Part shown: in pieces, positions 25,158 to 41,793 of the stretch | Numbering within the stretch: position 1 is the stretch's first letter | Layout: every line of letters starts with the position of its first letter | Assembly: GCF_000689395.1 (NCBI RefSeq) | Contig: NZ_HG966617.1 | Coordinates: 1,549,274 to 1,613,273, forward strand | Reading direction: 5' to 3' | DNA length: 64,000 bases | Origin: Candidatus Phaeomarinobacter ectocarpi | GTDB lineage: Bacteria; Pseudomonadota; Alphaproteobacteria; CGMCC-115125 | The notes under the pieces: generated by a model | The model's input: only the letters and a program-made list of their open reading frames with translations | What the model was told of the DNA's origin: nothing | Database searches by the model: none | Made by a program: the position numbers and the translations under genes

Positions 25158-25394
25158 ATGACATTCGGCATTCCCATGCGCTGGCGCAAACTCATTGGCC
25201 TCGTGGTGCTGCTGGTGTTCATGTTCCTCTATGCGATGTTTGTAATGACATTTGCGGTCTACAAACTTCCCGAAAACGGCATCTTGGAGTTCGCCTATTT
25301 TCTGGCAGCCGGTATTCTGTGGGCCATTCCGGCGGGCTTCCTCATCAAGTGGATGCAGATACCTGACCCCGGCACCCCGCCGCAGCAAATCTAG
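25158..25394 (+). CDS. DUF2842 small inner-membrane protein
   Basis: A 78-residue protein with two transmembrane helices (LIGLVVLLVFMFLYAMFVMTF and FAYFLAAGILWAIPAGFLI), joined by a short loop and ending in KWMQIPDPG. It matches DUF2842, a small family of alphaproteobacteria with no known function. ATG 25158 has GGAG 8 bases upstream; the longer frame from 25083 lacks such support. It overlaps the convergent glycosyltransferase gene by 4 bases. Confidence 0.85.
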   Translation: MTFGIPMRWRKLIGLVVLLVFMFLYAMFVMTFAVYKLPENGILEFAYFLAAGILWAIPAGFLIKWMQIPDPGTPPQQI

Positions 25395-26662: not shown

Positions 26663-26723
26663 AAGGTCACCTTTCTACCCCACGACGGCCTCATGTGGCG
26701 GACGCACAGGGCAGTGACAAGGC

Positions 26724-26804
26724 TTAGTCGAAACGGCCAAACGTCATCTTGTTGAGGGCAAGAAAGGCAACCATGAAGATGGCAATCGCAATAATGGCGG
26801 ACAT
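26724..26804 (-). CDS. 26-residue single-helix membrane miniprotein
   Basis: A short frame from ATG 26804 to TAA 26724 encodes 26 residues: a short N-terminus, a hydrophobic helix (AIIAIAIFMVAFLAL), then a polar end NKMTFGRFD. The composition is that of a real transmembrane peptide. The ribosome site is weak (AAAGACG). It sits alone in the 360-base gap between the GT1 gene and the 168-residue exported protein. I cannot name a family. Confidence 0.5.
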   Translation of the reverse strand: MSAIIAIAIFMVAFLALNKMTFGRFD

Positions 26805-27022
26805 GACACGTCTTTCGTCTGGGGGCGACTCATCGGGAGCCGCCGTGATTTGATCAACTGCGGCGGACTATAGAGGGTTCCCCTCCAATTCCAAGATGCG
26901 GCTTTTTGGCCGTTCGCTCGTTTCCGACCATGGGTCATTTTTGTTTTGACGCACCGGCATGAAGGGCTGACACTCTCCCCAAGCCGCAAAGGGCATTCAA
27001 AAAAACGACCCGGAGGAACCCC

Positions 27023-27529
27023 ATGTCAGCCAATATGTCAGCCATACGTTCAGGTCTCATCGCGGCCGCCTTTGCCTTTGCAGCAGGTCCGGTCATCGCC
27101 GAAGACTATGCTGCTCCAGCAGCGGACGCGTCGGCATCTGCCGCGGAAGAAGCCCCGCAGATGACAACCGGCAATGGTGAGGAAAACTGGATCATCACCG
27201 AAGGTGCCACACGTAACGGCGCGACCTTCACGTTTCCCGAAGTTCACATTGCAGAAAATGGCTGGCTGGTGATGCATCCCTTTGAGGACGGCAAACCCAA
27301 TGGCGACATTTATGTGGGTCATACCTATGTGGGCAAGGGAACCAATGCCGACGTGGAAATCACCGTCGACGATGAGCCAGCCGTCGGCGAGATGTTTATT
27401 GTGATGCTTCACAGCGACGTCAACGAGGACAAGGTGTTTGACTTTGTGTTCGTCAATGAGCGCGAAGTGGCAGACAAGGCCGTGTTCGAGGGCATGAAGA
27501 TGATTGCCCACCCCTACCCGGCACCCTAG
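27023..27529 (+). CDS. Exported DUF7282-like protein
   Basis: A 168-residue protein with a signal peptide (SGLIAAAFAFAAGPVIAED, cut after VIA). An acidic, Ala-rich linker is followed by a compact beta-rich domain: ATFTFPEVHIAENGWLVMHPF, HTYVGKGTNADVEITVDD and MFIVMLHSDVNEDKVFDFVF. This layout resembles DUF7282-type domains, found in surface proteins of archaea and bacteria. Its Asp/Asn/Glu-rich DVNEDKVFDF turn could bind a metal. CCGGAGGAACCCC precedes ATG 27023. The product should be periplasmic or extracellular; function unknown. Confidence 0.72.
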   Translation: MSANMSAIRSGLIAAAFAFAAGPVIAEDYAAPAADASASAAEEAPQMTTGNGEENWIITEGATRNGATFTFPEVHIAENGWLVMHPFEDGKPNGDIYVGHTYVGKGTNADVEITVDDEPAVGEMFIVMLHSDVNEDKVFDFVFVNEREVADKAVFEGMKMIAHPYPAP

Positions 27530-27556: not shown

Positions 27557-28615
27557 CTAAGCGACATTCACCCGGCGGAACTTGTTCCAAAGGGCGAATG
27601 GCGCACCACCCAGCAGGACTTCAACAAGATCAACATCCTGAAAGTCGCCATTAAGCGACAGGCGCGGCAAGGCCCGCAGATGATTGCCATGGGCATCAAA
27701 CAACAGGCCCTTGCGCGTCGTCACGGCAGACGCAAAGCGCTGCTCTGAAGACAGATCAAACTCGCGCAGACCAGCGGACCCTTCGTCCCCATAGGGATAG
27801 GCAAAGTGGCGTGGCCGCACGCCAAGCTCTGACTCAAGACGCGCTGTACCCGCCATCATGTCTTCGCGCGCCCGGTCCAGTGGCAGTTTTGCCAGCGCAA
27901 AGTGTGAGGCCGTATGCGCCCCGATGGTGCATAGCGGATGATCATTGAGGCGGCGCACATCGTCCCAGCGCATGGAGAGCGAGGACGCCAGGGCCTGTCC
28001 ATCGACACCGGCAAGCTCTGCAAGGCGGGCAACCGCATGTCGCGCATCATCCTCGCTGACATCACGCAGACGCCAATAGACACTTTCCCACGCGCCACGC
28101 ATTTCCTTTTCGGTGTGGGCAGCGTGGGAGATCGTCTCGCCACCGATGTCCATTTCGACATGGTCCAGTGCCCGGATGGAGGCTTCAAGCGTCAGCCACC
28201 AAAGATCGGCAATACCGTCCGGCAGGTCGGACGCCACATAGACCGCAAATGGCGCGGCATGCTTTTCAAAGATCGGCAGCGCCAGATCAGCATTGTCGAG
28301 ATAGCCATCGTCAAAGGTAAAGGCTGCAAAGGGACCCGGACCTCCCTTGCGCAACCGACGAACCATCTCGTCCAGATCGACAATGTCATATCCCAGGTCG
28401 CGAACCCGCGAGATCACCGCATCAAGAAATGCCGGTGTTACTTCCAGACCCCGGTTGGGTGCGAAATCATGTGACCGCGGTGCCTGCTCCACCACGCGAT
28501 GCAGCATGAAGATGGCCCCAAGACCGCGCCAGCTATTGCCCAGCACCCGATGCGCCCGCGTTGTGCGCAGGGTGCTCAGACCAAACTTCAAGACATCACT
28601 GCCAACCAGACGCAT
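27557..28615 (-). CDS. Polysaccharide deacetylase (CE4 / NodB fold)
   Basis: A 352-residue protein with a NodB-homology domain: FTFDDG (99-104, catalytic base and metal Asp), HTASH (metal His pair) and RHFAYPYGDEG. Such enzymes remove N- or O-acetyl groups from glycans. No signal peptide is obvious, so it may act on a lipid-linked or nucleotide-sugar intermediate in the cytoplasm. ATG 28615 has GGTGAG upstream; the longer frame begins with TTG at 28621. It is divergent from the first GNAT-type gene of the exopolysaccharide locus and likely shares its regulation. Confidence 0.9.
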   Translation of the reverse strand: MRLVGSDVLKFGLSTLRTTRAHRVLGNSWRGLGAIFMLHRVVEQAPRSHDFAPNRGLEVTPAFLDAVISRVRDLGYDIVDLDEMVRRLRKGGPGPFAAFTFDDGYLDNADLALPIFEKHAAPFAVYVASDLPDGIADLWWLTLEASIRALDHVEMDIGGETISHAAHTEKEMRGAWESVYWRLRDVSEDDARHAVARLAELAGVDGQALASSLSMRWDDVRRLNDHPLCTIGAHTASHFALAKLPLDRAREDMMAGTARLESELGVRPRHFAYPYGDEGSAGLREFDLSSEQRFASAVTTRKGLLFDAHGNHLRALPRLSLNGDFQDVDLVEVLLGGAPFALWNKFRRVNVA

Positions 28616-28766
28616 CGCCAAAACTCACCGCTGCAATTAACCAGGCCGCAGACTACCGCCCAGTGATTGCCAAGCGATTGACGCGGCCTTGCGCGGACAC
28701 AAAAGACGCAATGGCACCCTTTTTGCGGATAGACCCTTAGAAATCGGGTCCCCAAAAGGTAATCAC

Positions 28767-29984
28767 ATGAACGCCAGCGCAGCTCTGAAACACGAAGAAC
28801 TGTTGAATAATCAACAGTTTGTCGACCCCATCGGGGCTGACGACATGGTTTTCAGCACGACCAGCGACATCGCGTCGCTCCAGCGCATCTGGCGCAACCT
28901 GGAGCAACGAAGCGCCGCGCATGTGTTCCAAACATGGGCCTGGGTCTCAAATTGGCACAGTCACATCGGGCAGGCGCGCGGCATCACCCCGCATATCATT
29001 ATGGCGAGCAGTCCCGACGGTACGTTGCGCGCCCTCCTGCCCATGGGCATCGAGACCCGTGCCGGGCTGCGGACACTGGTCTGGCTCGGCGATGAACATG
29101 CGGACTTCAAGGGGCCGGTGATCGACAAGTCCCTGCTCGCAGGTCTGACAACCGACGCCACGAAAAAACTCTTTGATAAAGCCTTCCGTCTCACCCGTGG
29201 GATCGACGCGGTGAAGCTGGTCGACATGCCAACGTTGCTGAATGATGCCCTGCACCCGCTGCTGGTCTATCCCAGTCAGCTGGCACCGGCGGGATCTCAT
29301 TCCCTGACCATCAACGAAACGTTCGACGCCCTCTACAAGGCCCGGCGCGGCAGTTCCTCGCGCAAGAAACTGCGGCAGAGATCACGACGGCTGGCAGAGG
29401 CCGCTGGCCCCACAAAGTTCAAGGTCGCGCGGACACCTCAGGCACGCTCGGAAGCCATCTCCGTGCTGATTGAACAAAAACGTGCCCGACTGGCTGAAAT
29501 GGGTGCCGGGGACATTTTCGCATCCTCCAATGTGCGTGCGTTCTATCGCACCCTCGCTGAGCAGCACCCGGAGATTTGCCAGCTCTCCACCTTCCAGGCC
29601 GGTGATGACATTGTTGCCGCCAACTGGGGCCTGACCTGGGGCAGCCGGTACTACTACGTGCTGTCCACCATGACCGACGGGGAGTACCGCACTTATTCGC
29701 CTGGTCAGTTGCACCTCAATGAGCTTATCGAGTGGAGCACCATTCGTGGCTTTGACGTGTTCGATTTCACGGTCGGCGATGAAGACTACAAGGATGACTG
29801 GTGTGACACGTCAACGGACCTTTTTGACGTTTACATTGGCTTAACCATCAAGGGCCGCGCCCTTGCTTGGGGGCAGGCAAAAACCCGCGCCGCGAAGCGT
29901 TTCATCAAGCAGTCGCCACGTCTGTGGTCTGTGGCAAAAAGGCTCAGAAAACGGCTGTATGACTACCGAACGCATACGGCTTAG
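28767..29984 (+). CDS. FemAB/BioF2-like GNAT acyltransferase, copy 1
   Basis: A 405-residue cytoplasmic protein of the BioF2-like (CelD/BcsL) GNAT superfamily found in exopolysaccharide loci. Typical parts are the N-terminal ASLQRIWRNLEQR and HVFQTWAWVSNWHSHIG entry, the basic SSRKKLRQRSRRL helix, and the C-terminal acyl-donor domain with YSPGQLHLNELIEW and FDVFDFTVGDEDYKDDWCD. FemAB relatives transfer aminoacyl groups and GNATs transfer acyl-CoA groups; the donor here is unknown. ATG 28767 has AAAGGT 8 bases before it. It opens the plus-strand block and is followed by a JmjC-like gene. Confidence 0.87.
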   Translation: MNASAALKHEELLNNQQFVDPIGADDMVFSTTSDIASLQRIWRNLEQRSAAHVFQTWAWVSNWHSHIGQARGITPHIIMASSPDGTLRALLPMGIETRAGLRTLVWLGDEHADFKGPVIDKSLLAGLTTDATKKLFDKAFRLTRGIDAVKLVDMPTLLNDALHPLLVYPSQLAPAGSHSLTINETFDALYKARRGSSSRKKLRQRSRRLAEAAGPTKFKVARTPQARSEAISVLIEQKRARLAEMGAGDIFASSNVRAFYRTLAEQHPEICQLSTFQAGDDIVAANWGLTWGSRYYYVLSTMTDGEYRTYSPGQLHLNELIEWSTIRGFDVFDFTVGDEDYKDDWCDTSTDLFDVYIGLTIKGRALAWGQAKTRAAKRFIKQSPRLWSVAKRLRKRLYDYRTHTA

Positions 29985-30071
29985 TAACCCCCTTATGCGA
30001 CTGTTTCGCTGAACACACAGCCAGCACCGGCTTTGATTTTAGTGAACTGTTACATTTGGGGAGCCCCAGGC

Positions 30072-31001
30072 ATGTCCCGCATTCTGGATATCACACAAGA
30101 AAATGCCGATCGTTTTTCGACCGGCACCGTGCAGGCCAAGCACCGCTTTTTGGAAAGCGGCCTGTTCGAGGACGATGCGCTCGCGGAGCTGATTGAAGGC
30201 TATCCCGAAGAGCATATGAGCATCCACACAACAACACTCAATCCCGACGGTGTGGAGACCTGGCGTCATGGCTCCATGAAGGGCCGCACCGGTGCTGATG
30301 TGATTGAGGCGATCAAACATGGCAAGCTCTGGATCAACCTCCAGCACATGGAAGACGTCGCGCCACGTTACCACGCGCTGGTCGCCCGGGCGCTTGATGA
30401 TGTGACGGAGAAAAATCCGTCTCTCAAGCACATGCGGCACAACACCGGCATTCTGATTTCCAGCCCGTCGGCGCGGGTGCTCTATCACTGCGATATTTCG
30501 CCGGTGGTCCTGTGCCACATCCGGGGTGCAAAGCGTCTTTGGCTCTATCCCAACACGGACGAGTTCATTTCAAACAACTCTCGCGAGCAGGTCGTGCTGC
30601 GCGAAACGGAAGAAGAAGTGCCCTACTCCGAAGACATGGATGCCCATGCCCAGGTCTTTGATCTGAAGCCCGGTGATCTTCTGTCCTGGGAAATGCAGGC
30701 ACCGCATCGCGTGGACAACATCGAAGGTCTCAATGTGTCCATGACAACGGCCTACTACACGCCCGAAGCCATGAAGCAGTATGGCGTCATCTACGGCAAT
30801 GGCGTGCTGCGTCGTCTGTTCGGCATGAACCCTAAAAGCGTCGACACCAAGGGCCTTGCCGCCATGATCAAGTGCGGGCTGGCCTTTGCCGTGAAGAAGA
30901 CCGGCGTCCTTGAGGCCAATGAACGCGAATTCGTCACGACCTTCGAGGTCGATCCCACGCAGGAGCTTGGCTATGTGGAGTTTGAGGGACATCGGGCCTA
31001 G
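30072..31001 (+). CDS. JmjC/cupin-like Fe(II) oxygenase candidate, copy 1
   Basis: A 309-residue protein with a double-stranded beta-helix. The metal triad of 2-oxoglutarate oxygenases can be placed: H139-x-D141 (YHCDISPVV) and distal His212 (QAPHRVDN), with the JmjC-like stretch HIRGAKRLWLYP between. This matches the cupin_8/JmjC group, whose members hydroxylate amino-acid side chains or small molecules. No signal peptide is present. ATG 30072 is chosen over the longer 30033 frame. It follows the first GNAT gene by 87 bases and precedes the second by 26. Hydroxylating an acyl or aminoacyl group on the glycan is my inference. Confidence 0.82.
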   Translation: MSRILDITQENADRFSTGTVQAKHRFLESGLFEDDALAELIEGYPEEHMSIHTTTLNPDGVETWRHGSMKGRTGADVIEAIKHGKLWINLQHMEDVAPRYHALVARALDDVTEKNPSLKHMRHNTGILISSPSARVLYHCDISPVVLCHIRGAKRLWLYPNTDEFISNNSREQVVLRETEEEVPYSEDMDAHAQVFDLKPGDLLSWEMQAPHRVDNIEGLNVSMTTAYYTPEAMKQYGVIYGNGVLRRLFGMNPKSVDTKGLAAMIKCGLAFAVKKTGVLEANEREFVTTFEVDPTQELGYVEFEGHRA

Positions 31002-31027
31002 CGCCTGATGTTCGCCCAGGTGCACAC

Positions 31028-32269
31028 ATGTCTCAGAATGCCGCGTCACCCACATCCATAATCAGGTCTCCCGCGTCATCTGCCGGTGACGCATCGCTGC
31101 ACATTGTCCGGTCAATCGACGATGTGCAGTACCGGGTTTCGATCTACCACAATCTGGATGACTGCGCCGTTGCGTGGCGGTTGCTGGAGCAAACAGCTCA
31201 CGCGACGGCCTTTCAGCAGCATGCATGGCTGTGTGCATGGATGGCTACTGTCGGTAAGGCCAGAGAGATTGAACCCTGCATCGCGCTTGTGCGTGATCCA
31301 GATGGTGAGCTGGTGATGATCCTGCCCTTCGCCGTTGAACGGGTGATGGGTGTCTCCACGCTTGTGTGGCTGGCGCAGGACGAGGCCGACTATCACGGGC
31401 CCCTGATCCATCCAAACTGGAACAGCAACACAACACGCCAGGAACTCGGCCGCATCCTGAACGTGATTGCGACCACCGTAGCAAAGGTGGATGCGTTCAG
31501 TCTCACCAAGACGCTTACCGAAATTGAAGGTGTAAGGAATCCGCTGACCCTGTTGGAGCATGATGCCCACCCGTCGTCCGGCCACGCCATTTCACTCGAC
31601 CATGATGACTTCAATACCTTCTATGCAGCCGCGCGCAGCAAATCGACACGCAAACGCGACCGCCAGCGCCGCCGGCGTCTGGATGAGAGTGGCGATGTTG
31701 CCTTCACAATTCCCACAACCCGGGCCGACCAGCACGCCATGCTGGAAGCGATCCTCAAGCAGAAAGCCACCTGGCTCAGCGAACGCGGAATTGTCGATCC
31801 GTTCGGGTCCGACGAGGTCAAGGCCTTCCTGCACGGCCTGATTGATGACCACACCATGCGCAACAGCCTGCACTTGTCGGCGCTCACCCTTGATGGGGAC
31901 GTCATTGCGGGTAATGTCGGCTTCGTCAGAGGTGACCGGTTTTATGCCGTCATCGGTAGCGTCACCGAAGGCGAAGCGTCCCGGCACTCACCGGGCACCA
32001 TTCACTTGCATGAATTGCTGCGCTGGTGCTTTGCCAACAATATCTCGGCCTTCGATCTCACCGTGGGTGACGAGGGATACAAGAAGGACTGGTGCGACGC
32101 GCATCTGGACCTCATCGACATCCGCATTCCGCTGACTTTTTCAGGCTACCTGTTCACGCTGCCCTCGCGCCTCAAGGATACGCTGAAGCGGCGGATCAAG
32201 GCATCGCCTGCCATGTTCAACCTGGCGCTCCTTGCCCGCCGGGCTGTGCGCTCCGTCATCCCTGCATGA
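31028..32269 (+). CDS. FemAB/BioF2-like GNAT acyltransferase, copy 2
   Basis: 413 residues, clearly paralogous to copy 1. Shared blocks are AFQQHAWLCAWMATVG, the basic STRKRDRQRRRRLDESG helix, YAVIGSVTEGEASRHSPGTIHLHELL, and FDLTVGDEGYKKDWCD, which mirrors FDFTVGDEDYKDDWCD. The N-terminal 35 residues are Ser/Ala-rich and variable. CAGGTG precedes ATG 31028. Its stop overlaps the flippase start (ATGA at 32266-32269), which ties the acyltransferase to export of the glycan. Confidence 0.87.
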   Translation: MSQNAASPTSIIRSPASSAGDASLHIVRSIDDVQYRVSIYHNLDDCAVAWRLLEQTAHATAFQQHAWLCAWMATVGKAREIEPCIALVRDPDGELVMILPFAVERVMGVSTLVWLAQDEADYHGPLIHPNWNSNTTRQELGRILNVIATTVAKVDAFSLTKTLTEIEGVRNPLTLLEHDAHPSSGHAISLDHDDFNTFYAAARSKSTRKRDRQRRRRLDESGDVAFTIPTTRADQHAMLEAILKQKATWLSERGIVDPFGSDEVKAFLHGLIDDHTMRNSLHLSALTLDGDVIAGNVGFVRGDRFYAVIGSVTEGEASRHSPGTIHLHELLRWCFANNISAFDLTVGDEGYKKDWCDAHLDLIDIRIPLTFSGYLFTLPSRLKDTLKRRIKASPAMFNLALLARRAVRSVIPA

Positions 32270-33675
32270 CCGCGCTGGACACACAGCAGTCCGCAACAAA
32301 CAGCTTTGTGCGGCTGACGGCGAAGGTTGCCTCCATGCTTCCAGATCCGCTCGGCAAAAAGCTGTCCGGCCTTCTGGACAACGCGGATGATCTAGCATCG
32401 GTCCTGCGCGGTGCCGCCTCGGTGATGGCGATCCGGGTGGCCGGCGCCTGTGTCAGCTTTGTCTCCCTTGCCCTGCTCGCCCGATGGATGGGTGCCTTCG
32501 AATTCGGCATCTATGCCTATGTGTGGACCTGGATCATCTTTATCGGGACCATGGCACCGCTGGGTCTCAATACATCCTTGATGCGGTTTATCCCCGAATA
32601 CATGGCCCGCCAGCGCTGGGGACGTATCTGGGGCCTGCTCACTCAGGCGCATCTCATCGTGCTGGCCGCGTCCACGGCGGCGTCAGTTATTGGCGGCATC
32701 ATCCTGTGGATCGTCCATCCCTACATCGACGACTACTACGTTGTGCCATTTGCCGTCGCTCTTCTGGTCCTGCCGCTATACGCCCTGCTGGACACACAGG
32801 AAGGCACCGCGCGCGCATTTGGCTGGGTAACGCTGGCCTACATCATCCCCTACCTGATGCGGCCCTTGCTGCTGCTGCTTGGCATCGGCACGCTGGTTCT
32901 GGTCGGTCTTGCACCTGACGCGATCGATGCCCTGCTGGCGATGGCCGCTGCATGCATCATCGGCATCACCGTGCAGGCCATCGTGCTTGTGCGCAGCATC
33001 CGCGCCACCGTGCCACGTGCCAAGCCACGCACCCATGCGGGCTACTGGCTGATGATTTCCATGCCGATGCTGGTGTTTGAAGGCGCCTACCTTCTGATGT
33101 CATCAACCGATGTCATCATGCTTGGCCAGATCGAGGACCCGGCGTCCGTCGCGATCTACTATGCCGCGGCCCGCACCGCGAGCCTGATCGGCTTTGTCTA
33201 TTTCGCGACAACGGCCCGGACCGTTCCCAAATTTGCCGAGATCAATGCATCCGGCAGCCGGGAAGACCTGCAGAAATTTCTCGACGGCGTGAACCGCGTC
33301 AGTTTCTGGCCGAGCTTCATGGGCGTGCTGGTCCTGCTCGTCATTGGACAATACATCCTCGGGCTGTTCGGAGATGGCTTTGAGGACGGGTACTTGATCC
33401 TTGCGATCCTCTCCATGGGGTACATGGCCCGCTGCACGGTTGGCCCGCTTGAATATCTCCTGTCGATGACCGGCAGGCAGATGATCGCCACGAAGATCAT
33501 CTGCGCCTCTGCGGTGTTCAACGCCGGGCTCAACCTGCTGCTGATACCTGAACTGGGAACACTCGGCGCGGCGCTGGCGACCATCATTGCCATGCTTGTG
33601 AACCTCGCAGCTCTTGCCATCGCCGTGCATAGAAAACTGGGCATCAACGCGTTCCTGCTGCGTCCAGGGCGGTAG
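32266..33675 (+). CDS. Polysaccharide flippase (Wzx/MOP family)
   Basis: A 469-residue membrane protein of the MATE/MOP exporter superfamily with about 12-14 hydrophobic helices, including VMAIRVAGACVSFVSLALLA, FVSLALLARWMGAFEFGIYAY (the family's LGxxxFGxYA-like motif) and LLLIPELGTLGAALATIIAM near the end. It should move undecaprenyl-linked repeat units or a lipid-linked glycan across the inner membrane. ATG 32266 overlaps the stop of the GNAT gene; a longer frame back to 32092 lies inside that gene and is not used. Confidence 0.92.
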   Translation: MTALDTQQSATNSFVRLTAKVASMLPDPLGKKLSGLLDNADDLASVLRGAASVMAIRVAGACVSFVSLALLARWMGAFEFGIYAYVWTWIIFIGTMAPLGLNTSLMRFIPEYMARQRWGRIWGLLTQAHLIVLAASTAASVIGGIILWIVHPYIDDYYVVPFAVALLVLPLYALLDTQEGTARAFGWVTLAYIIPYLMRPLLLLLGIGTLVLVGLAPDAIDALLAMAAACIIGITVQAIVLVRSIRATVPRAKPRTHAGYWLMISMPMLVFEGAYLLMSSTDVIMLGQIEDPASVAIYYAAARTASLIGFVYFATTARTVPKFAEINASGSREDLQKFLDGVNRVSFWPSFMGVLVLLVIGQYILGLFGDGFEDGYLILAILSMGYMARCTVGPLEYLLSMTGRQMIATKIICASAVFNAGLNLLLIPELGTLGAALATIIAMLVNLAALAIAVHRKLGINAFLLRPGR

Positions 33676-33775
33676 GCACGCGCTGGCGTCCGCATGGCAT
33701 TGCGATTGCTGCGTACCAGCATGACCCCCGACCGCCTGTGCCCTATTGGCACACTCGGCTGCCTCAGGAAGCCAA

Positions 33776-35050
33776 ATGAGCCTGATTGAGACCAAATACA
33801 GCGAAACAGCGCAGGTGCCTGCCCCACTTTTGCGCGGCCAGACCGTGCCGCCGGCAGCGCTTGCAAACCCGCGCTTCAGTAGCCAGTGGACAACCACTGA
33901 GAAACTGGACGCCGATTTCATGGCGGAATGGACCGAACTCGCAGCCGCCGCCAGCGAACCCAACCCGTTTTACGAACCACATCTCTTGCTGCCTGCCCTG
34001 AAGCATCTGGTGGGGCGCGACAACGTCCGGATCCTGACCGTGCGCGACCGCCTGATGGCCAATCGTCTGGTCATGCTGGTCCCCCTGCAAATCACCGCGA
34101 CCTATCGCGGTATTCCAGCCCGGTGCGCCCGCCCCTGGCGCCACATCCACACATTTCTGGCAACGCCGCTTGTGCGCCATGGCAATGAAAAAGACGCCAT
34201 CAGAGGCCTGATGACCCACCTGGCTGCGGACGGCATACCCCTCCTGCGCCTGCACCACATGGCGTCTGACGGGCCGGTCAATGCCGCCCTGCGCGATATT
34301 GCCGAGGGGGCTGATACAGCCATAACAACAACGCGCACTTTTGAGCGCGCCATTTTGAAAAGCGATCTGGATGCAGATGCCTATCTGACATCCAGCATTT
34401 CGAAGAAGAAACGCAAGGAATATGGACGCCTCAAACGCCGTCTGGCCGATGAAGGTGACGTCACCTTTGAAACGCCTGACATGAACGACCCTGCCTGCGT
34501 TGAAGGCGTGGTGCTTGAGTTTCTAGAGCTCGAGCGGACCGGCTGGAAAGGAGCCGCAGGCACCGCCATTGCGTCACGACCTGCGGAAGCCCGGTTCTTT
34601 GTTGACGCTTGCCGCGCAGCCGCTGCCACGGGAAACCTGTCGCCGCTCACGCTCCGGCTCGACAATGTGCCGATCGCCAGCATCATCAACTTCAAGGGCT
34701 CAGCTGCGCGCGATACCAGCCTTTTCTCGTTCAAGATCGCCTATGACGAAACCTACGCACGCTTCTCGCCGGGTGTCCTGCTTGAGCTGGAACTGACAGC
34801 CCGTGCCCTCGCCGCAAATGACATTACCTGCGTCGACAGTTGCGCCAACCCCGACCACCCGATGATTGACCACCTGTGGCGCGAACGCCGCGCCATGCAG
34901 GACGTTACGTTGGCCACATCCAAGGCAACCTCGGCGGCGCTCATTGGCCTCACTGCGCTGAGTGAAAAGTCGGCGGCAGCGACAAAACGCCAAATCCAAT
35001 CCGCAGCGAAGGCACTCAAAAAGAGCCTGCTGAAAAGGAAGGCAGCATGA
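33776..35050 (+). CDS. FemAB/BioF2-like GNAT acyltransferase, copy 3 (divergent)
   Basis: A 424-residue protein of the same superfamily but more diverged from copies 1 and 2. It keeps EPNPFYEPHLLLPALKHL, SSISKKKRKEYGRLKRRLADEG (basic helix, here lysine-rich), SLFSFKIAYDETYARFSPGVLLELELTARA and a DSCANPDHPMIDHLWRERR end in place of TVGDExYKxDWCD. The last region resembles the FemAB/CelD form with E-R-R. AGGAAG lies 6 bases upstream of ATG 33776. Its stop overlaps the next JmjC-like gene (ATGA at 35047-35050), a second GNAT-JmjC coupling. Confidence 0.85.
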   Translation: MSLIETKYSETAQVPAPLLRGQTVPPAALANPRFSSQWTTTEKLDADFMAEWTELAAAASEPNPFYEPHLLLPALKHLVGRDNVRILTVRDRLMANRLVMLVPLQITATYRGIPARCARPWRHIHTFLATPLVRHGNEKDAIRGLMTHLAADGIPLLRLHHMASDGPVNAALRDIAEGADTAITTTRTFERAILKSDLDADAYLTSSISKKKRKEYGRLKRRLADEGDVTFETPDMNDPACVEGVVLEFLELERTGWKGAAGTAIASRPAEARFFVDACRAAAATGNLSPLTLRLDNVPIASIINFKGSAARDTSLFSFKIAYDETYARFSPGVLLELELTARALAANDITCVDSCANPDHPMIDHLWRERRAMQDVTLATSKATSAALIGLTALSEKSAAATKRQIQSAAKALKKSLLKRKAA

Positions 35051-35961
35051 ACCAGATATCTCCAATGGATCATTTTTCAGCGCACGACGGTGGCATCGAG
35101 ATGCGCGTCGGTATGTCGCCCTTCAAGATGCGTCATGATCTGGCAGGCAATCCCCTGTTCAGCCTGGAGGCCATGGCTGACCTTGCAAGTGAGTTGCCGC
35201 GCGACAAGGTCGACTACAATCTCGCCAATCTTCCTGTGGATGTCTCCGGCAAGCATGTGCCGTTCAACGGCATGTCAGCGGCAAACACGATCAAGGAAAT
35301 CGAGACCTGCGGCTCATGGATCGTCCTCAAGGGCATGGAACACGTCCCGGCCTACAATGTCCTGCTGGATGAACTGATTGATGAGCTTGCCCATTTGAGC
35401 GGCGTATCCACATCAGCCTTTGACAATCGCGTGGCCCTTGGTTTCGTCACCTCGCCGGGTGGCGTCACGCCCTATCATCTGGACTCAGAGCACAATTTCC
35501 TGCTGCAGATGTCCGGCAAGAAGACCATCACCATCCTGCCCCATCAGGCGACGACGACTGCTGAGGACACCGAAATTTCACCGGCCAAAAGCCGGTACAT
35601 CCAGTATCAGCCGGGCTTTGCTCCATTGGAGCAGACATTCGAGTTGAGCGCCGGTGACGCGGTCTGTGTGCCCTTCAACGATCCTCATTATGTGAAGAAC
35701 GGTGACGCCGTCTCCGTCTCCATGGGCATTACGTTTCATGATCTTGAAACATGGCAGCGGCGCAAGGTGGCGACCGTCAACCACATGCTCCGCCGTATCG
35801 GACTGCCGCAGGAGCGGGCCGGCACGCAACATGGAAAAGACCAAATGAAGGCCGCCGCCTATGACGCGCTCAATACCGTCGTAGATCCCATTCGGAACAA
35901 CAAGAAGGCACGGCAGTTTGTAAAGAGACACGTGCTGCGCGGCGCAGCTGCAACGCCTTAG
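35047..35961 (+). CDS. JmjC/cupin-like Fe(II) oxygenase candidate, copy 2
   Basis: A 304-residue soluble protein with the JmjC/cupin_8 metal signature: H144-x-D146 (TPYHLDSEHNFLLQMSGKK, typical HxD-x3-N-x3-Q-x-x-GxK layout) and distal His214 (NDPHYVKNG). It is related in fold to copy 1 but shares little sequence outside the core. All ligands are intact, so an active 2-oxoglutarate/Fe(II) hydroxylase is plausible. It is translationally coupled to GNAT copy 3. Its end overlaps the convergent Wzz/GumC gene by 4 bases. Confidence 0.82.
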   Translation: MNQISPMDHFSAHDGGIEMRVGMSPFKMRHDLAGNPLFSLEAMADLASELPRDKVDYNLANLPVDVSGKHVPFNGMSAANTIKEIETCGSWIVLKGMEHVPAYNVLLDELIDELAHLSGVSTSAFDNRVALGFVTSPGGVTPYHLDSEHNFLLQMSGKKTITILPHQATTTAEDTEISPAKSRYIQYQPGFAPLEQTFELSAGDAVCVPFNDPHYVKNGDAVSVSMGITFHDLETWQRRKVATVNHMLRRIGLPQERAGTQHGKDQMKAAAYDALNTVVDPIRNNKKARQFVKRHVLRGAAATP

Positions 35962-38204
35962 GCGATTTGAATGAGGCCGGCCGTATCGGTCTGCGGCAGG
36001 GCCTGTGTCGGAGCATTGGTGCCCCGCAGGAGAACGAGGCTCGTGTCCGAAGCCCGGTCGAACGACGGCGCAAGTCCAAGGACGACACTGTCCGGATCAC
36101 CTACCAGAACAATCTGCGCTGATTGAGCAAGGGCCTGCATGGCGTTTGCAATCAATGCTGGATCATCGTGAACGGGGATGGATCCCCAGCCGATGAAGCG
36201 CGCACTCGACTGCGTGTCCGGCTGCATCACCTGGGCAAAGCCACAATGGCGGCTCATGACATCGGTCAGGCCCATGGCAGGCTGTGGCGACGTCCCCACC
36301 ACCACAACACTCTTGCCCTGCTGGGCGAGAAGCCGTGCCAGCCCGACGAGACCTTTGGGACCCGACTGACCACACGCCACCCGCACCACGCGGCCTGGCA
36401 CATGCTGGCCATAGCGGCTGGGGCGTGACGCAATAAAGCGCAGAATTTCCTGAGCGGACTGGCTCAAGACCCATTGGTCATGTTGGGTCAAGGTCGGGTT
36501 GGCCGGGAGCAGCGCAATCATCTGTGTAACCGGTTGCCGGGGCACACCCTGCTGCGGTGCTGCGTAGGCAGGCATCGGTGGCGGAGGTGGCGGCGGCGCT
36601 GATCGGTAAGCCTGTTGTGGCGGCTGCGGCCGGAAGGGATCGACATATCCTCCAGCAGCATAAGCCGGTGCCGGTTGGCGACGCTGTGGCTGCGGGGCAT
36701 AGGGCTGCAGGGGCGCACGAGCAGGCTGTGACTGATAGGCATAGGCCTGCTGAGGCGCATAGGCGGCATCGTAGCCAGCGGGCACCGCTGGGGGAGCCGG
36801 TTGCTCAGAACGCCGCATGGACGCGGCAGCGGCATAGCGAGGTGCCGGTGTTGTGGCGCCCGCAAGCATCTCCGTGGCCAGCACAATCAACAGCCCGAAT
36901 GTCAGCGAGGCCATGAAGGCCAGCATCAGGATGGGGCCTTTCTTTGGGAAGGACGGGCTTTCAGGTGTTTCCGCCCGGGAGATGATCCGTGCTTCTGGAC
37001 GCTGAATGGAGCGGTCGTCCCGGGCCCCTGCTTCACTGGCACGTAAGAGAAACGATTCCAGCAGTCCGCGATTGGCGGCAGCCTCGCGTTCAAGGGATCG
37101 CAGCTCACTTTCCTGCTGCTTTTCCGTGGTGACGTCTTTCTTGAGCCGCGCGATGGAAGATCGCAGCGTTCTCTCGCGCGCGGTTGCGACACGCACATCA
37201 TTTTCCAGACGGCGGGCAATTTTGCCGACTTCAGCTGAAATGGCGCGGCGCAGATCATCGAGTTCGGCCAGACGCGCAATCATGTCAGGATGCTGGGGCA
37301 AAAGATCGGCCGACAGATCAGTGATCTGCCGTTGCAGCGCCACTTCCTGCTGCCGCAACTGGCGAATGAGCGGATTATCCAGCACTTCAGAAGATGTTTC
37401 GATGCCAGCAGGTGACTGCATCAAGGCCCGCGCACTGTCGAGACGCGCCTGCAGTTCAGAGCGGGTCGTGCTCGCGGTAATCAGCTGGGCGTTGAGGGCA
37501 GCCAGCTCCGTGTTCTTGAGCAGGTTGCCGTTTGATTCAAAGATGCCGGACTTGCGGCGAAACTCGCTGACAGCAGCTTCGGAGGCTTGCACCTGGGCGC
37601 GAAGTTTGTAGACCTGCTCATCAAGCCATGAACTCGCCCGGCGCGTGACAGCCACCTGTGCATCCAGCTGCCCGCCCACATAAAGGTCGGCAATGGCATT
37701 TGCCACCATCATGGCGCTGCGCGGATGCTCCGCCCAGAAATCAATTGCGATCACGCGGGACTCGCCCACCTGATAGACATTCAACCGGTCGAAATATGCG
37801 CTGATCACCGCTGCACGGTTGGCAGGCTTGCGCGCACCAAACCCAAACAGTCCCCCGCCCGTCGTGGAGAACTCTTCCCACGTGTCAAGTTTGAGCTGCG
37901 TCACCACCTGGTCTGCGAGCGAACGCGACAACAGGACCTGGATTTCGCTTTCAATCTTTTTCTGATCGGCCTCACGCACCGCCTGGTTGGCCAGTGGATT
38001 TGTCGCGTCAGGCGTCTGGCCTTCGATGAGAATGCGGACTTCGCCGGTGTAATGCGGTGTGACGGTGCTCAGGGCCGCATAGGCAAGAACAACGCCCGCA
38101 AGCACGAACAGCACCAGGAACCATTTACGGGCCCAGACCCGTGCCAGCAATGCCCAGACATCAAGGCCCGCTGAGCCGTCTGCCGATCTTCCGGCAGCAG
38201 ACAT
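35958..38204 (-). CDS. Wzz/GumC polysaccharide co-polymerase with degenerate BY-kinase-like domain
   Basis: About 748 residues. TM1 at 28-46, a periplasmic Wzz domain, long coiled coils (about 185-400), the Pro-rich PESPSFPKKGP motif (414-424) before TM2 (424-448). Then comes a Pro/Tyr/Gln-rich linker (about 452-560, with YDAAYAPQQAYAYQ) and a C-terminal P-loop-like domain (about 605-748). The Walker A position reads GQSGPKGL (612-619) instead of GxxxxGKT/S, and no Tyr cluster ends the protein, so tyrosine-kinase activity is unlikely. It should control chain length or export. ATG 38204 has AGGA 7 bases upstream; earlier ATG 38237 has none. It is divergent from the Wza-type gene. Confidence 0.88.
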   Translation of the reverse strand: MSAAGRSADGSAGLDVWALLARVWARKWFLVLFVLAGVVLAYAALSTVTPHYTGEVRILIEGQTPDATNPLANQAVREADQKKIESEIQVLLSRSLADQVVTQLKLDTWEEFSTTGGGLFGFGARKPANRAAVISAYFDRLNVYQVGESRVIAIDFWAEHPRSAMMVANAIADLYVGGQLDAQVAVTRRASSWLDEQVYKLRAQVQASEAAVSEFRRKSGIFESNGNLLKNTELAALNAQLITASTTRSELQARLDSARALMQSPAGIETSSEVLDNPLIRQLRQQEVALQRQITDLSADLLPQHPDMIARLAELDDLRRAISAEVGKIARRLENDVRVATARERTLRSSIARLKKDVTTEKQQESELRSLEREAAANRGLLESFLLRASEAGARDDRSIQRPEARIISRAETPESPSFPKKGPILMLAFMASLTFGLLIVLATEMLAGATTPAPRYAAAASMRRSEQPAPPAVPAGYDAAYAPQQAYAYQSQPARAPLQPYAPQPQRRQPAPAYAAGGYVDPFRPQPPQQAYRSAPPPPPPPMPAYAAPQQGVPRQPVTQMIALLPANPTLTQHDQWVLSQSAQEILRFIASRPSRYGQHVPGRVVRVACGQSGPKGLVGLARLLAQQGKSVVVVGTSPQPAMGLTDVMSRHCGFAQVMQPDTQSSARFIGWGSIPVHDDPALIANAMQALAQSAQIVLVGDPDSVVLGLAPSFDRASDTSLVLLRGTNAPTQALPQTDTAGLIQIA

Positions 38205-38496
38205 ATCGTGATCCTGGGTGGGCACACCGTAAGACATGGGCGAGCTTGCATGCTCCTCATTGCCGCTGGTGCCAAAGTCAGGGCTGCACAGCGGACATAC
38301 GCCCGCGAATCGCTCCGCGCGCAAAAATGATCCAGCCTGCTTTTTAGCGGCCTTAAGGTAACCGGGATGTTAACCCGCATTAATTTTCCCGGTTTTCCCG
38401 GCGATTTTGGCCGTCCTGTCCCCCAAAGGCGCTAAGGCGATGGTAACCGTGACCGGTCTAGGCTCGCACACCTGACACAAATTCGAAGGTGTAGCG

Positions 38497-39135
38497 GTGA
38501 CATCCATGCGTGCGTATCAAAAACTGTTTGGTGGATTGAGCCTGATGTCGGCACTCGTTTTGGCGGGCTGCGGCGGCTTTTCCAGCGAGCCACAGATGCG
38601 GGTAGCATCGGCCCCCTTGCCGGCCCATCCACAGGCTGCCAGCCAGCAGCCCATGCAGAACGCAGCGCCCATGCCGGGCCGCCTGTCCCAGTACCGATTG
38701 GACGCAGGCGATGAACTGCGGGTGATCGTGTTTGGTCAGGAAGCCCTGTCCGGCACGTTCCGTGTGGATGATTCAGGGTCGATCACCATGCCGCTCCTGC
38801 CGCCTTTGGGTGTTCGCGGGCTCTCAACAGCACAGACCAAGACATCCATTGAACAGGCCCTGTCGCAGACATTGCTGCGCAACCCGAATGTGTCCGTTGA
38901 GGTATCGCAGTTTCGTCCGTTCTTCATTCTCGGACAGGTCAACGCGCCGGGACAATATCCCTTTGTTTCGGGCATGACCGTTGAGACCGCTGTTGCCATC
39001 GCCGGTGGGTACACCTACCGCGCCAATACTTCGCGCGCACGGATTACCCGCACGGCCTCAAACGAGTTCAAGGCGGAGACCAACGCTCTGGTGATGCCCG
39101 GCGACACCATCTTTATCCGCGAACGGTTCTTCTAA
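38497..39135 (+). CDS. Wza-type polysaccharide export lipoprotein (short OPX)
   Basis: A 212-residue outer-membrane lipoprotein: signal GGLSLMSALVLAGC with lipobox Cys25, then the poly_export domain (YRLDAGDELRVIVFGQEALSGTFRVDD, ISQ-like VSVEVSQFRPFFILGQV) and an SLBB segment (NAPGQYPFVSGMTVETAVAIAGGYTYRA). It is much shorter than E. coli Wza and lacks the C-terminal alpha-barrel helix, so another protein may form the outer pore. GTG 38497 is chosen because GAAGG is 7 bases upstream; ATG 38506 is the alternative. It heads the plus-strand run Wza, GT4, ligase. Confidence 0.9.
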   Translation: MTSMRAYQKLFGGLSLMSALVLAGCGGFSSEPQMRVASAPLPAHPQAASQQPMQNAAPMPGRLSQYRLDAGDELRVIVFGQEALSGTFRVDDSGSITMPLLPPLGVRGLSTAQTKTSIEQALSQTLLRNPNVSVEVSQFRPFFILGQVNAPGQYPFVSGMTVETAVAIAGGYTYRANTSRARITRTASNEFKAETNALVMPGDTIFIRERFF

Positions 39136-39144
39136 GCCCAGATC

Positions 39145-40380
39145 ATGACCGCATCAACGCACCACATCGAGCATGAGGCAGAGCGTAAGCTCAACATTCT
39201 GCATGTGTTTCGCGCGCCTGCCGGCGGGCTCTTTCGCCATGTCCAGGATCTGGTGCGTGGACAGGTCGCTGCCGGTCACAGGGTTGGCATCGTCTGCGCG
39301 TCAAACGATGTGTCACCTGCGGCTGAAAAAGCGCTTCTGGCGCTGGAGCCGGACCTGGCCCTTGGTATGCGCCGCATCTTCATGTCGCGCCTGGCAGATC
39401 CGCGAGACCTGGCAGCCATCACGACTGTGCGGGCGCTGCGATCAAGCCAGCAACTGGACATTGTGCACGGCCACGGCGCCAAAGGCGGCCTGATGGCCAG
39501 GCTGGCTGTGCACCGTCCGCCCAACGACGCCGCACCGGATCGCCGGGCCCGTTCTGTCTACACGCCCCATGGCGGTTCATTGCACTACGACGCGACATCC
39601 CTGTCCGGCATGGCGTATCTCGCCGTCGAAAAACTCCTCAACAGCCAAACCGACGCCTTCATCTTTGAAAGCGAATTCGCACGCAGTGTGTTTGCGCGAA
39701 AGATTGGTGCGCCAAAAGGCAATTCCCAGATCGTGCACAACGGTGTGGGTGAAACGGATTTTCTGCCGCTGCCAAACCGACAGAGCACCTACGACATCGC
39801 CTTTGTCGGCGAGTTGCGGATGCTCAAAGGCATTGACATCCTGCTGGACGCCCTCGCGACCCTGCGCGGGCGCAATCTGCGGATCGTCATTGCTGGCGAT
39901 GGCCCTGACCGGGACCACTTCATCGACCGGGCCTGCAACCTCGGCCTGGCACCCATGGTGACATTCCCCGGTGCGCTGCCCGCACGCGAGGTGTTTGCCT
40001 CCTCGAAAATGCTGGTGGTGCCGTCGCTGGCGGAGTCCCTGCCCTACATCGTTCTTGAGGCGCTGGCCGCAGCAATGCCGCTCGTGGCGACCAACTGTGG
40101 CGGCATTCCGGAAATCTTTGCCGATCGCGCTGACAGTCTTGTGCCGCCGGGCGATGCCCTGGCGCTGGCAGAGGCTCTTACGCGCACACTGGATGCGCCG
40201 GCCCAGGCAGACGCAGTTGCAAAGCAGATGCGCCAGGACATTGCGCACCGTTTTTCTGTCGGCACCATGGTGCGCGGCGTCGATGACGTTTATCGCACCG
40301 CGCTGACCGGTCTGCCGGTACGTGACGGCGTACCGCAGGTGATGATCCCCGCAACGCCGCATTCCGCCAACGGGGCCTGA
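39145..40380 (+). CDS. Family 4 glycosyltransferase
   Basis: A 411-residue GT-B enzyme transferring a sugar from a nucleotide donor to a lipid-linked acceptor. The acceptor domain has HVFRAPAGGLFRHVQDLV, and the donor domain has IAFVGELRMLKGIDILLDAL and the E-x7-E motif in PSLAESLPYIVLEALAAAMP followed by NCGGIPEI. It begins 9 bases after the Wza-type gene and ends 1 base before the ligase gene, a tight operon. It is the only GT4 in this locus, so either the repeat unit is simple or other transferases lie elsewhere. Confidence 0.93.
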   Translation: MTASTHHIEHEAERKLNILHVFRAPAGGLFRHVQDLVRGQVAAGHRVGIVCASNDVSPAAEKALLALEPDLALGMRRIFMSRLADPRDLAAITTVRALRSSQQLDIVHGHGAKGGLMARLAVHRPPNDAAPDRRARSVYTPHGGSLHYDATSLSGMAYLAVEKLLNSQTDAFIFESEFARSVFARKIGAPKGNSQIVHNGVGETDFLPLPNRQSTYDIAFVGELRMLKGIDILLDALATLRGRNLRIVIAGDGPDRDHFIDRACNLGLAPMVTFPGALPAREVFASSKMLVVPSLAESLPYIVLEALAAAMPLVATNCGGIPEIFADRADSLVPPGDALALAEALTRTLDAPAQADAVAKQMRQDIAHRFSVGTMVRGVDDVYRTALTGLPVRDGVPQVMIPATPHSANGA

Positions 40381-40381
40381 C

Positions 40382-41653
40382 ATGTCTGCCACGGCAGTAC
40401 ATCCACCTGTGCACGCATCTCCACAGGCACCTGACCTGTCGTCGTCTGCGCGATGGAGCCAAAGTCTCGACATCGCCAACACGGCCTTTGCATCGGTATT
40501 GCTGTTCTGCCTGATGGCAAGCTCGCATTACGTGCTGCGCGAGCCCGCGCCGTACGACCTGATGATGGTCGCGACAGCGGGCATGCTGTTCATGCTGGGA
40601 CTGCGCATCCCGGCAGGTGTAGCCCTGCCCTTTGGTCTCATGGCGCTGGTCCTGTGCGGCTACATGATCGGTGGGACGAATGCGCGATACATTGATCTGT
40701 CGATCACGTTTCTGCAGACCTCGACCTACCTGACCCTTACCTTTGCGTTTTACACCGCCGTCGTGGCGGCCTCCCCGGACAGGGCTTTGAAAGCCCTGTG
40801 GGGCGGGTACATTCTCGCAGGCCTGTGCGCGGCGTTTCTGGGCATCGGGGGCTATCTGGGATTCATTCCCGGCAGCGACATTCTGCTGGGCGCCGGGCGC
40901 GCCAAGGCCCTGTTTGAAGACCCCAACGTGTACGGACCATTTCTGGTGCCGCCGACGATCTATGCAATCTGGCGCATGACAACACGTGGTGTGGGACCGG
41001 CCGTCTTTTTCTGGGGCCCGATCGCCACCATCCTCGTGCTCGGACTGTTCCTCAGTTTCTCACGCGGCGCGTGGCTGCACATGATGCTCTCCGCCGGCGC
41101 TTTTGCAGTGCTGGCCGGCATGGCGCCGGAAACCCGTGGGCAACGCGGGCGCATCGTGATGATCGCCATGCTCCTTGGGGTCATGCTGACCCTTGCCATT
41201 GGCTGGGCAATCAGCATCCCCGAAGTCCGCGAGCTGCTGGAGCAGCGCCTTGGACTGCAGTCCTATGACACCAAGCAGGGCGGACGGTTCTCCGGCCAGT
41301 TTGAAGCCCTCAAGATGGCAATGCTCAATCCATTCGGGATTGGTCCCAACAACTGGGGCATGATTGCCGCCCAGGACACCCACAACGTCTATTTGAATGT
41401 TTTTGTCGGGGGCGGGTTCCTGAGCCTTGTAGGCCTTGTCGGCGCATTTGGCCTCACCGTGGTGCGCGGCTTCAGATATGCCATGACCGGCCCAAGGCGC
41501 GGTGTGTTCATCGTGGCCTTTGCAAGTTTCATCGGACTGATCGCTGAAGCCATCATCATCGACATCAACCACTGGCGGCATTTGTATCTGCTGATGGGCA
41601 TGATGTGGGGTCTGATGCTGGCCGCACCACCTGCCGCCCACACGCGCCGCTAA
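40382..41653 (+). CDS. O-antigen ligase / Wzy-like polymerase
   Basis: A 423-residue membrane protein with about ten hydrophobic helices and the O-antigen ligase family signature, including the FEDPNVYGPFLVP and LFLSFSRGAW blocks (the conserved SRG motif), a large loop with LEQRLGLQSYDTKQGGRFSGQF, and MLNPFGIGPNNW followed by DTHNVYLNVFVGGG (the TAHN-like motif). It should polymerise or ligate glycan repeat units on the periplasmic side. It is the last gene of the locus. Confidence 0.9.
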   Translation: MSATAVHPPVHASPQAPDLSSSARWSQSLDIANTAFASVLLFCLMASSHYVLREPAPYDLMMVATAGMLFMLGLRIPAGVALPFGLMALVLCGYMIGGTNARYIDLSITFLQTSTYLTLTFAFYTAVVAASPDRALKALWGGYILAGLCAAFLGIGGYLGFIPGSDILLGAGRAKALFEDPNVYGPFLVPPTIYAIWRMTTRGVGPAVFFWGPIATILVLGLFLSFSRGAWLHMMLSAGAFAVLAGMAPETRGQRGRIVMIAMLLGVMLTLAIGWAISIPEVRELLEQRLGLQSYDTKQGGRFSGQFEALKMAMLNPFGIGPNNWGMIAAQDTHNVYLNVFVGGGFLSLVGLVGAFGLTVVRGFRYAMTGPRRGVFIVAFASFIGLIAEAIIIDINHWRHLYLLMGMMWGLMLAAPPAAHTRR

Positions 41654-41716: not shown

Positions 41717-41793
41717 TGGTCGGAGCGGCCGGATTTGAACCGACGACCCCTTGTCCCCCAGACAAGTGCGCTACCAGGCTGCGCTACGCTCCG
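41717..41793 (-). tRNA. tRNA-Pro (anticodon GGG)
   Basis: The minus strand folds into a 77-base tRNA with acceptor CGGAGCG pairing with CGCTCCG, D arm GCGC-AGCCTGGTA-GCGC, anticodon stem CTTGT-CTGGGGG-ACAAG giving GGG, and T arm TCGGTTCAAATCCGG; the ACCA end is encoded. Placement next to merR-ihfA-fabH-plsX is usual in alphaproteobacteria. Confidence 0.97.

Follow-up and report, generated by a model that had tools for sequence, protein, structure and literature searches.

A candidate decorate, hydroxylate and flip module within a surface-polysaccharide locus of Candidatus Phaeomarinobacter ectocarpi

Why should transferases of the FemAB/GNAT type and JmjC-type oxygenases be encoded among the export genes of a surface polysaccharide? 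The question is raised by a locus at positions 27557-41653 of a 64,000-nucleotide stretch of DNA (hereafter the window) from Candidatus Phaeomarinobacter ectocarpi, whose genome is one contig of 3.4 Mb from which the window takes positions 1,549,274-1,613,273. The locus encodes a CE4 deacetylase, three PF13480 GNATs, two JmjC/Cupin_8 proteins, Wzx, Wzz, Wza, a GT4 glycosyltransferase and a Wzy_C protein, in the order CE4 (minus strand), GNAT1-JmjC1-GNAT2-Wzx-GNAT3-JmjC2 (plus), Wzz (minus) and Wza-GT4-Wzy (plus) (Table 1). Every gene that an initial annotation had named here was recovered by Pfam or NCBIfam profiles, and the set for a Wzx/Wzy-dependent pathway is complete, with Wzx, Wzy, Wzz and Wza all lying within 32266-41653. 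Since the CE4 and Wzz genes sit on the minus strand, we take the six-gene plus-strand run as the core. We propose that this run is a decorate-hydroxylate-flip module within a Wzx/Wzy polysaccharide locus, a reading to which we would give about an even chance of being right.

The arrangement of the locus is more than a chance assembly of genes, since its order recurs in two relatives from the same genus and, in reduced form, in a different family. Three further genomes of the genus were found (G and L numbers are our handles for genomes and loci): G001 and G002 share the locus order, and G003 keeps CE4-GNAT1-JmjC1-GNAT2 until its 6.3 kb contig ends. JmjC1 is 76% identical in the nearest named relative, a Candidatus Phaeomarinobacter metagenome-assembled genome (MAG), and one described member of this group lives with brown algae (PMC4110880). 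Beyond the genus, G323, from that other family, carries CE4-GNAT-Wzx-GNAT-JmjC-Wzz-Wza-GT4-Wzy in the order and on the strands seen in the window, at 33-61% identity, minus JmjC1 and one of GNAT1/GNAT2; an orthologue of the CE4 gene thus adjoins the module there too.

The initial annotation had proposed recurrence of the GNAT-JmjC-Wzx neighbourhood in other genomes as its own test, and the GNAT-JmjC pair does recur widely, with Wzx present in a subset only. Relatives of the JmjC proteins occurred in 16 of 385 genomes sampled from the class and in 35 of 398 sampled from the phylum, eight being in both; two of the latter 35 lie outside the class, neither with a GNAT beside its JmjC gene. A scan of named genomes gave 277 JmjC relatives, 80 of which were retained. 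For linkage we used 42 genomes picked by JmjC alone, the source genome and two congeners included, in which GNATs were then searched; the fragmented G003 stands outside this count, though it carries a GNAT-JmjC pair. A PF13480-type GNAT lies within 500 bp of JmjC in 32 of the 42 genomes, on the same strand in 31, and leaving out the source genome and its two congeners gives 29 of 39. In G012 and G145, Wzx alone separates JmjC and GNAT. These genomes hold 114 GNAT matches in total, a count in which some genes appear as several fragments, and at fewer than three matches per genome chance neighbours should be rare.

Taking named and unnamed loci together, JmjC and GNAT lie within 300 bp of one another in 54 of 93, all but one of these (53) on one strand. 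Closely related genomes (Bradyrhizobium, Hyphomicrobium, Methylobacterium) are included in this set, and a tree of the JmjC proteins is therefore the better guide. The tree covers 96 of 99 JmjC frames (240-460 amino acids) and is a quick one in which long branches meet in places; the state of being linked or unlinked requires 12 changes on it, well-supported branches make 11 of these unavoidable, and the two gene orders are both present. This pattern indicates that genes around a retained GNAT-JmjC partnership have been lost, gained or rearranged repeatedly. Locus L045 was omitted at one step because L033 seems to represent the same contig. The JmjC proteins of L101, L107, L067 and L108, which are labelled cyanobacterium or Deltaproteobacteria MAG, group with alphaproteobacterial ones, and these contigs are probably misbinned.

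The flippase is drawn into the partnership by gene order and by fusion. The order JmjC-Wzx-GNAT is found in L034, L035 and L066, with JmjC-Wzx-GNAT-JmjC-GNAT in L075 and GNAT-JmjC-Wzx-GNAT in L093. In G464, Wzx and GNAT form one protein of 889 amino acids (PF01943 and PF13480), the predicted end of which overlaps the JmjC gene by four bases. Within the genus of G464, all 13 of 13 genomes carry this fusion at full length (for example L149:5473-8142 and L182-L186), and it is found in 14 of 18 genomes at family level; in G744 both halves lie in one frame of 863 amino acids and the fusion is probably present. JmjC follows directly after the fusion in all five loci checked, and no other frame in the screened loci joins two domains of these families. 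The fusion, with JmjC next door, ties the transferase to the flippase, and we regard such a stable fusion as strong evidence that the product of the GNAT is what Wzx moves. By homology the same may hold in the window, where the profile of GNAT3 picks up the fusion at 171 bits. As a separate observation, GNAT3 (33746-35050) and the fused GNAT (L149:5473-8142) match the NCBIfam model for BspF, a proposed effector, at 175 and 178 bits (cut-off 775); relatives of BspF adjoin genes for a flippase and a JmjC protein, and the family may on this hint have originated with envelope glycans.

What the transferases might carry is suggested by the predicted structure of GNAT1. Its nearest solved structure is FemX (1xf8; Z 21.6, 296 residues aligned, root-mean-square deviation (rmsd) 3.1), followed by FemA (Z 21.1), the tRNA-dependent peptide synthases Sba18/Sbb17 (19.4), 2hqy (17.0; function unknown) and MprF (7f47; 16.8), with N-myristoyltransferases and other tandem GNATs trailing at Z about 14. 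Our structure-alignment lists are a second look at Foldseek matches, and families missing from them are not thereby excluded. The FemX-like arrangement of two GNAT domains comes from the GNAT1 model, GNAT2 and GNAT3 being assigned through PF13480 only. In an alignment of 36 rows (32 of 45 frames, the three window proteins and L045), K368 of GNAT1 is lysine in 30 rows, and a basic helix at residues 222-239 has K226 in 33 rows and R233 in 30; position 230 of this helix is arginine in 31 rows and glutamine in GNAT1 itself. In FemX, Lys305 is catalytic and a basic helix binds tRNA (PMC12945691), and judging by the aligned ranges K368 and the basic helix of GNAT1 would sit at about the same places. 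FemX, FemA and FemB have in common with GNAT1 the fold and the apparent placement of catalytic lysine and basic helix, whereas their gene context differs. The model and the alignment point to GNAT1 as a putative aminoacyl-tRNA-type transferase, with the donor predicted.

The JmjC proteins lend themselves to a similar analysis. The model of JmjC1 lies nearest to YcfD (4liv; Z 17.5, 189 aligned, rmsd 2.9), NO66 (Z 16.7, 221 aligned, rmsd 3.8), JMJD5 (Z 15.2, 198 aligned, rmsd 3.3) and TYW5 (Z 14.8, 220 aligned, rmsd 3.5), and the best sequence matches were TYW5 (E 7e-8) and then JMJD5 (E 0.001). These four proteins mostly hydroxylate amino acids or amino-acid-like groups. They have in common with the window proteins the JmjC double-stranded beta-helix and an HxD...H motif with a 2-oxoglutarate (2OG) lysine; unlike them, the window JmjC proteins are tied to transferase and flippase genes rather than to ribosome or histone functions. 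An alignment of 44 rows (41 of 78 listed frames, the two window proteins and L045) shows no variation at H152, K167 or H225 and has D154 in at least 90% of its rows, and the Fe(II)/2OG residues are retained in both window proteins. The evidence points to JmjC1 as an Fe(II)/2OG hydroxylase-type protein, its activity being predicted from the modelled fold and these residues.

If one considers these proteins as successive steps, a route can be proposed. At the cytoplasmic face, the FemX-like GNATs would load an undecaprenyl-linked sugar, at an amine or a hydroxyl, with an aminoacyl group whose donor is most likely aminoacyl-tRNA (acyl transfer from acyl-CoA being less likely); the JmjC proteins, using Fe(II), O2 and 2-oxoglutarate, would give a hydroxylated group or a hydroxylated donor; Wzx would flip the product, Wzy and Wzz would polymerise it and Wza would export it. 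The CE4 deacetylase may free further amines. TYW5, for its part, hydroxylates its tRNA base. A wider proposal is that there is a widespread and unrecognised alphaproteobacterial system in which a tRNA-borne amino acid is placed onto a lipid-linked glycan, hydroxylated by JmjC (perhaps already on the tRNA) and exported by Wzx; this we put forward only tentatively, as a rather unlikely extension, under which surface chemistry would hinge directly on O2 and 2-oxoglutarate. Were the proposed route correct, oxygen-dependent hydroxylation would be a new element in how bacteria modify their surface glycans, and an MprF-like logic would apply to polysaccharides.

Some parts of this scheme have precedents. 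MprF works by aminoacylating and then flipping (PMC8131360) and has a tandem-GNAT fold, and its transferase is fused to its flippase, as in the genus with the Wzx-GNAT fusion. The window differs in that its flippase is of the Wzx/MOP type (PF01943 and MurJ-type models) and encoded by a separate gene, in that JmjC proteins are added, and in its substrate, which is probably a lipid-linked glycan rather than phosphatidylglycerol. HfsK of the Caulobacter holdfast, a putative acyltransferase, might acylate amines exposed by HfsH (PMC5362036), and by its description HfsK resembles the window system, together with its paralogues CC2278 and CC1244, in being a FemX-like GNAT family of three paralogues linked to exopolysaccharide genes, with a CE4 enzyme in the pathway; the passages of that paper describing the system name no JmjC partner, in which the window is unlike it. 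The initial annotation knew of no standard exopolysaccharide pathway built in this way. FemAB-type GNATs in exopolysaccharide pathways are in fact known already, from HfsK (PMC5362036) and from the NCBIfam model of an XrtA-associated FemAB protein, so that the unusual part is the JmjC partner. HfsK-type GNATs are needed for strong Caulobacter glue, and the JmjC partner and the fusion offer testable clues to their reaction, namely that the product should be hydroxylated and made before flipping.

Identification with two of these known loci was considered and rejected. A WecG-type transferase marks the conserved holdfast (hfs) pathway (PMC11340318), and PF03808, the WecG family to which HfsJ belongs, had no matches in the source genome, the Caulobacter vibrioides control being positive; the initiating phosphoglycosyl transferase family PF02397, present twice in the genome, is not holdfast-specific. 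The CE4 protein is not taken as HfsH, its score lying far below the NCBIfam cut-off (Table 1). In XrtA/PEP-CTERM loci the likeness lies in NCBIfam FemAB, Wzz and export models that match the window weakly, all three below their cut-offs, and the two JmjC genes are the window's difference; for the XrtA-associated FemAB model TIGR03019, GNAT1 scores 12.2 bits against a cut-off of 260.35, with GNAT2 and GNAT3 not listed. Among the literature matches listed there was no paper on the GNAT-JmjC pair or the Wzx-GNAT fusion, though the survey of Iyer et al. 2010 (doi 10.1093/nar/gkq265) may mention the pair. Dioxygenases dependent on 2-oxoglutarate, JmjC types included, have been noted beside tRNA-related peptide-synthesis genes (PMC2922099), in a paper that cites this survey.

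Several results weigh against a module that decorates, hydroxylates and flips a polysaccharide precursor. We compared 40 JmjC regions (the window's genus left out; some share a genome and some are cut by contig ends) with 20 control regions, placed before their genes were inspected except for one that was moved off a known GNAT. A polysaccharide gene was present in 13 of the 40 JmjC regions and 3 of the 20 controls, a difference that is not significant (p 0.22), and at least two kinds of polysaccharide gene in 7 of 40 and 0 of 20 (p 0.08). Among named JmjC loci, 28 of 79 have a polysaccharide gene and 22 have two or more kinds, the former figure leaning upward because some of the profiles were seeded from those loci; the profiles may also miss distant genes. 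With 27 of the 40 regions lacking a polysaccharide gene by these profiles, the substrate need not be an exopolysaccharide, and the pair, or JmjC alone, which mostly stands apart, could act in trans on a glycan lipid or on another lipid or protein. Linkage is also incomplete: there is no GNAT near JmjC in 8 of the 42 genomes, and 40 of the 96 JmjC genes in the tree are unlinked to a GNAT. When a GNAT profile was run against solved structures, FemX was absent from the sequence matches up to an E value of 1; the matches were weak and mostly off-family (Sbb17, the tRNA-dependent peptide synthase, came in at E 0.36), and a single-sequence search with GNAT1 gave chance-level matches only. Lysine demethylases of the KDM6 type are in the JmjC1 fold list (Z 15.2, 244 aligned, rmsd 3.7). 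The locus is not the known holdfast pathway, as PF03808 is lacking, and the reaction of the closest relatives studied so far, the HfsK proteins, is itself unproven; their deletion in Hirschia baltica is described as without effect on the holdfast (PMC8449245). Finally, the substrate, the donor, the order of the steps and hydroxylation itself are what we infer. The model of acyl or aminoacyl transfer followed by hydroxylation in the initial annotation therefore fares unevenly: linkage, fusion and folds favour it, and the lack of significant polysaccharide enrichment near JmjC does not.

The same evidence bears on what else the genes might do. The GNATs may be acyl-CoA-dependent N-acyltransferases that re-acylate amines freed by CE4, with JmjC hydroxylating the acyl chain to give, for example, a hydroxyacyl-amide sugar. 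PF13480 is broad, HfsK is described as a putative acyltransferase (PMC5362036), N-myristoyltransferases come next in the GNAT1 fold ranking and a CE4 gene is adjacent in both the window and G323, all of which would suit such a reaction; however, the top GNAT1 folds of known function (FemX, FemA, Sba18/Sbb17 and MprF) are aminoacyl-tRNA-dependent, and the fold neighbours of JmjC mostly act on amino-acid side chains, so we consider acyl transfer unlikely. It might also be that the pair modifies some other molecule, such as a membrane lipid, a peptide or a protein, and that its place in a polysaccharide locus is a lineage-specific accident. Such an accident would accommodate the JmjC regions without polysaccharide genes, as well as the housekeeping genes (H+-PPase, hisS-hisZ) that the pair adjoins in several lineages, but it sits poorly with the presence of Wzx in 9 of the 40 JmjC regions and none of the 20 controls, with the fusion of Wzx to GNAT throughout one genus and with the near-complete synteny with G323, and we hold it to be improbable. 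A further suggestion, that the JmjC proteins are YcfD-like hydroxylases of proteins, of a ribosomal or a regulatory type, perhaps oxygen sensors acting on the GNAT or on translation rather than biosynthetic enzymes, takes its appeal from the ribosomal oxygenases YcfD and NO66 being the nearest folds. Identity to ribosomal oxygenases is just 10-17%, though, and the locus has two distinct JmjC genes, each beside a GNAT, in a pairing that recurs in several orders with Wzx or GT2 between; this suggestion seems to us very improbable.

Further observations concern the neighbours of the pair in other genomes. In the Hyphomicrobium group, hisS follows JmjC-GNAT in 10 loci (L064, L070, L084-L086, L096, L100, L105, L110 and L121) and hisZ in 9, with gaps of 18 to 375 bp and an apparent overlap in L084 that is probably due to an early start codon. 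We give this histidyl-tRNA link no weight, since a single insertion, inherited next to the housekeeping genes hisS-hisZ, would seem to account for it. At L039:9340-10272, a JmjC relative by an H+-PPase gene, not among the 44 aligned rows, lacks both the HxD motif, which it has lost, and an adjoining GNAT, and at L139:8042-11055 the JmjC and GNAT genes flank a GT2 glycosyltransferase gene that shares their strand. In L175 and L176 (two genomes of one genus) the pair adjoins the same gene family, the L175 copy being a CHASE2-PAS-GGDEF-EAL cyclic di-GMP enzyme. HfsK is a relative that binds cyclic di-GMP.

Table 1. Genes of the locus, in window coordinates. Pfam cut-offs: PF13480, 22 bits; Cupin_8 (PF13621), 27.4 bits; JmjC_2 (PF08007), 22 bits. 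pLDDT, predicted local distance difference test.
Feature	Position	Strand	Evidence
CE4 polysaccharide deacetylase	27557..28621	-	PF01522 59.4 bits; top NCBIfam model HfsH, 35.9 bits vs cut-off 400
GNAT1, FemX-like tandem-GNAT transferase (predicted)	28767..29984	+	PF13480 105.5 bits; model pLDDT 90.0
JmjC1, JmjC/Cupin_8 hydroxylase fold, HxD...K...H	30072..31001	+	PF13621 33.4 bits; model pLDDT 93.3
GNAT2, PF13480 transferase, GNAT1 paralogue	31028..32269	+	PF13480 104.4 bits; 32% identity to GNAT1
Wzx-type MOP flippase	32266..33675	+	PF01943 45.7 bits; MurJ, SpoVB models match weakly
GNAT3, PF13480 transferase, type fused to Wzx elsewhere	33746..35050	+	PF13480 67.4 bits
JmjC2, JmjC/Cupin_8	35047..35961	+	PF08007 25.4 bits; HLD...K...H retained
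Wzz/GumC-type chain-length protein, C-terminal kinase-like region	35958..38324	-	PF02706, GNVR; TIGR01005 222 bits, below cut-off 411.7
Wza-type outer-membrane export protein	38497..39135	+	PF02563, SLBB
GT4 glycosyltransferase	39145..40380	+	PF13692, PF00534
Wzy_C polymerase/ligase	40382..41653	+	PF04932 41.0 bits

Within the locus, the start codons of two genes are likely to be later than their longest open reading frames suggest. That of GNAT1 begins at 28689, and the likelier start at 28767 is a methionine aligned in 36 of 36 rows; that of JmjC1 begins at 30033, and 30072 is likelier because the G002 orthologue runs into a stop codon if its reading starts further upstream. Most of the genes had been described as joined by ATGA overlaps or short gaps. 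The short gaps hold, at 1 to about 90 bp, but four-base overlaps occur at just two same-strand junctions, GNAT2-Wzx (ATGA, 32266) and GNAT3-JmjC2 (35047); JmjC2 and Wzz are convergent and also overlap by four bases. Ratios of nonsynonymous to synonymous substitution against G002 orthologues were 0.04-0.10 for ten genes (Wza left out), and given such low values these ten behave as real genes. In the kinase-like region of the Wzz protein (35958-38324) a proper Walker A motif is apparently missing by eye, and the region may be a pseudokinase.

Genome-wide there are four PF13480 matches, three of them in the locus. The locus is without an initiating transferase, the two PF02397 genes lying about 1 Mb off at C1:2553787 and C1:2584230. 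Housekeeping genes make up most of its flanks: COX15, a Cys/Met pyridoxal-phosphate enzyme, FabH, a PlsX-type protein, BamE and an H+-PPase. Just outside the locus, at 25391-27529 of the window, are genes for a DUF7282 protein and, on the minus strand, a GT28 glycosyltransferase resembling EryCIII; G002 and G003 have relatives of both in the corresponding position, and none were seen in the G001 stretch. At the other side, a tRNA-Pro gene (ggg; window 41717-41793) directly adjoins the end of the locus.

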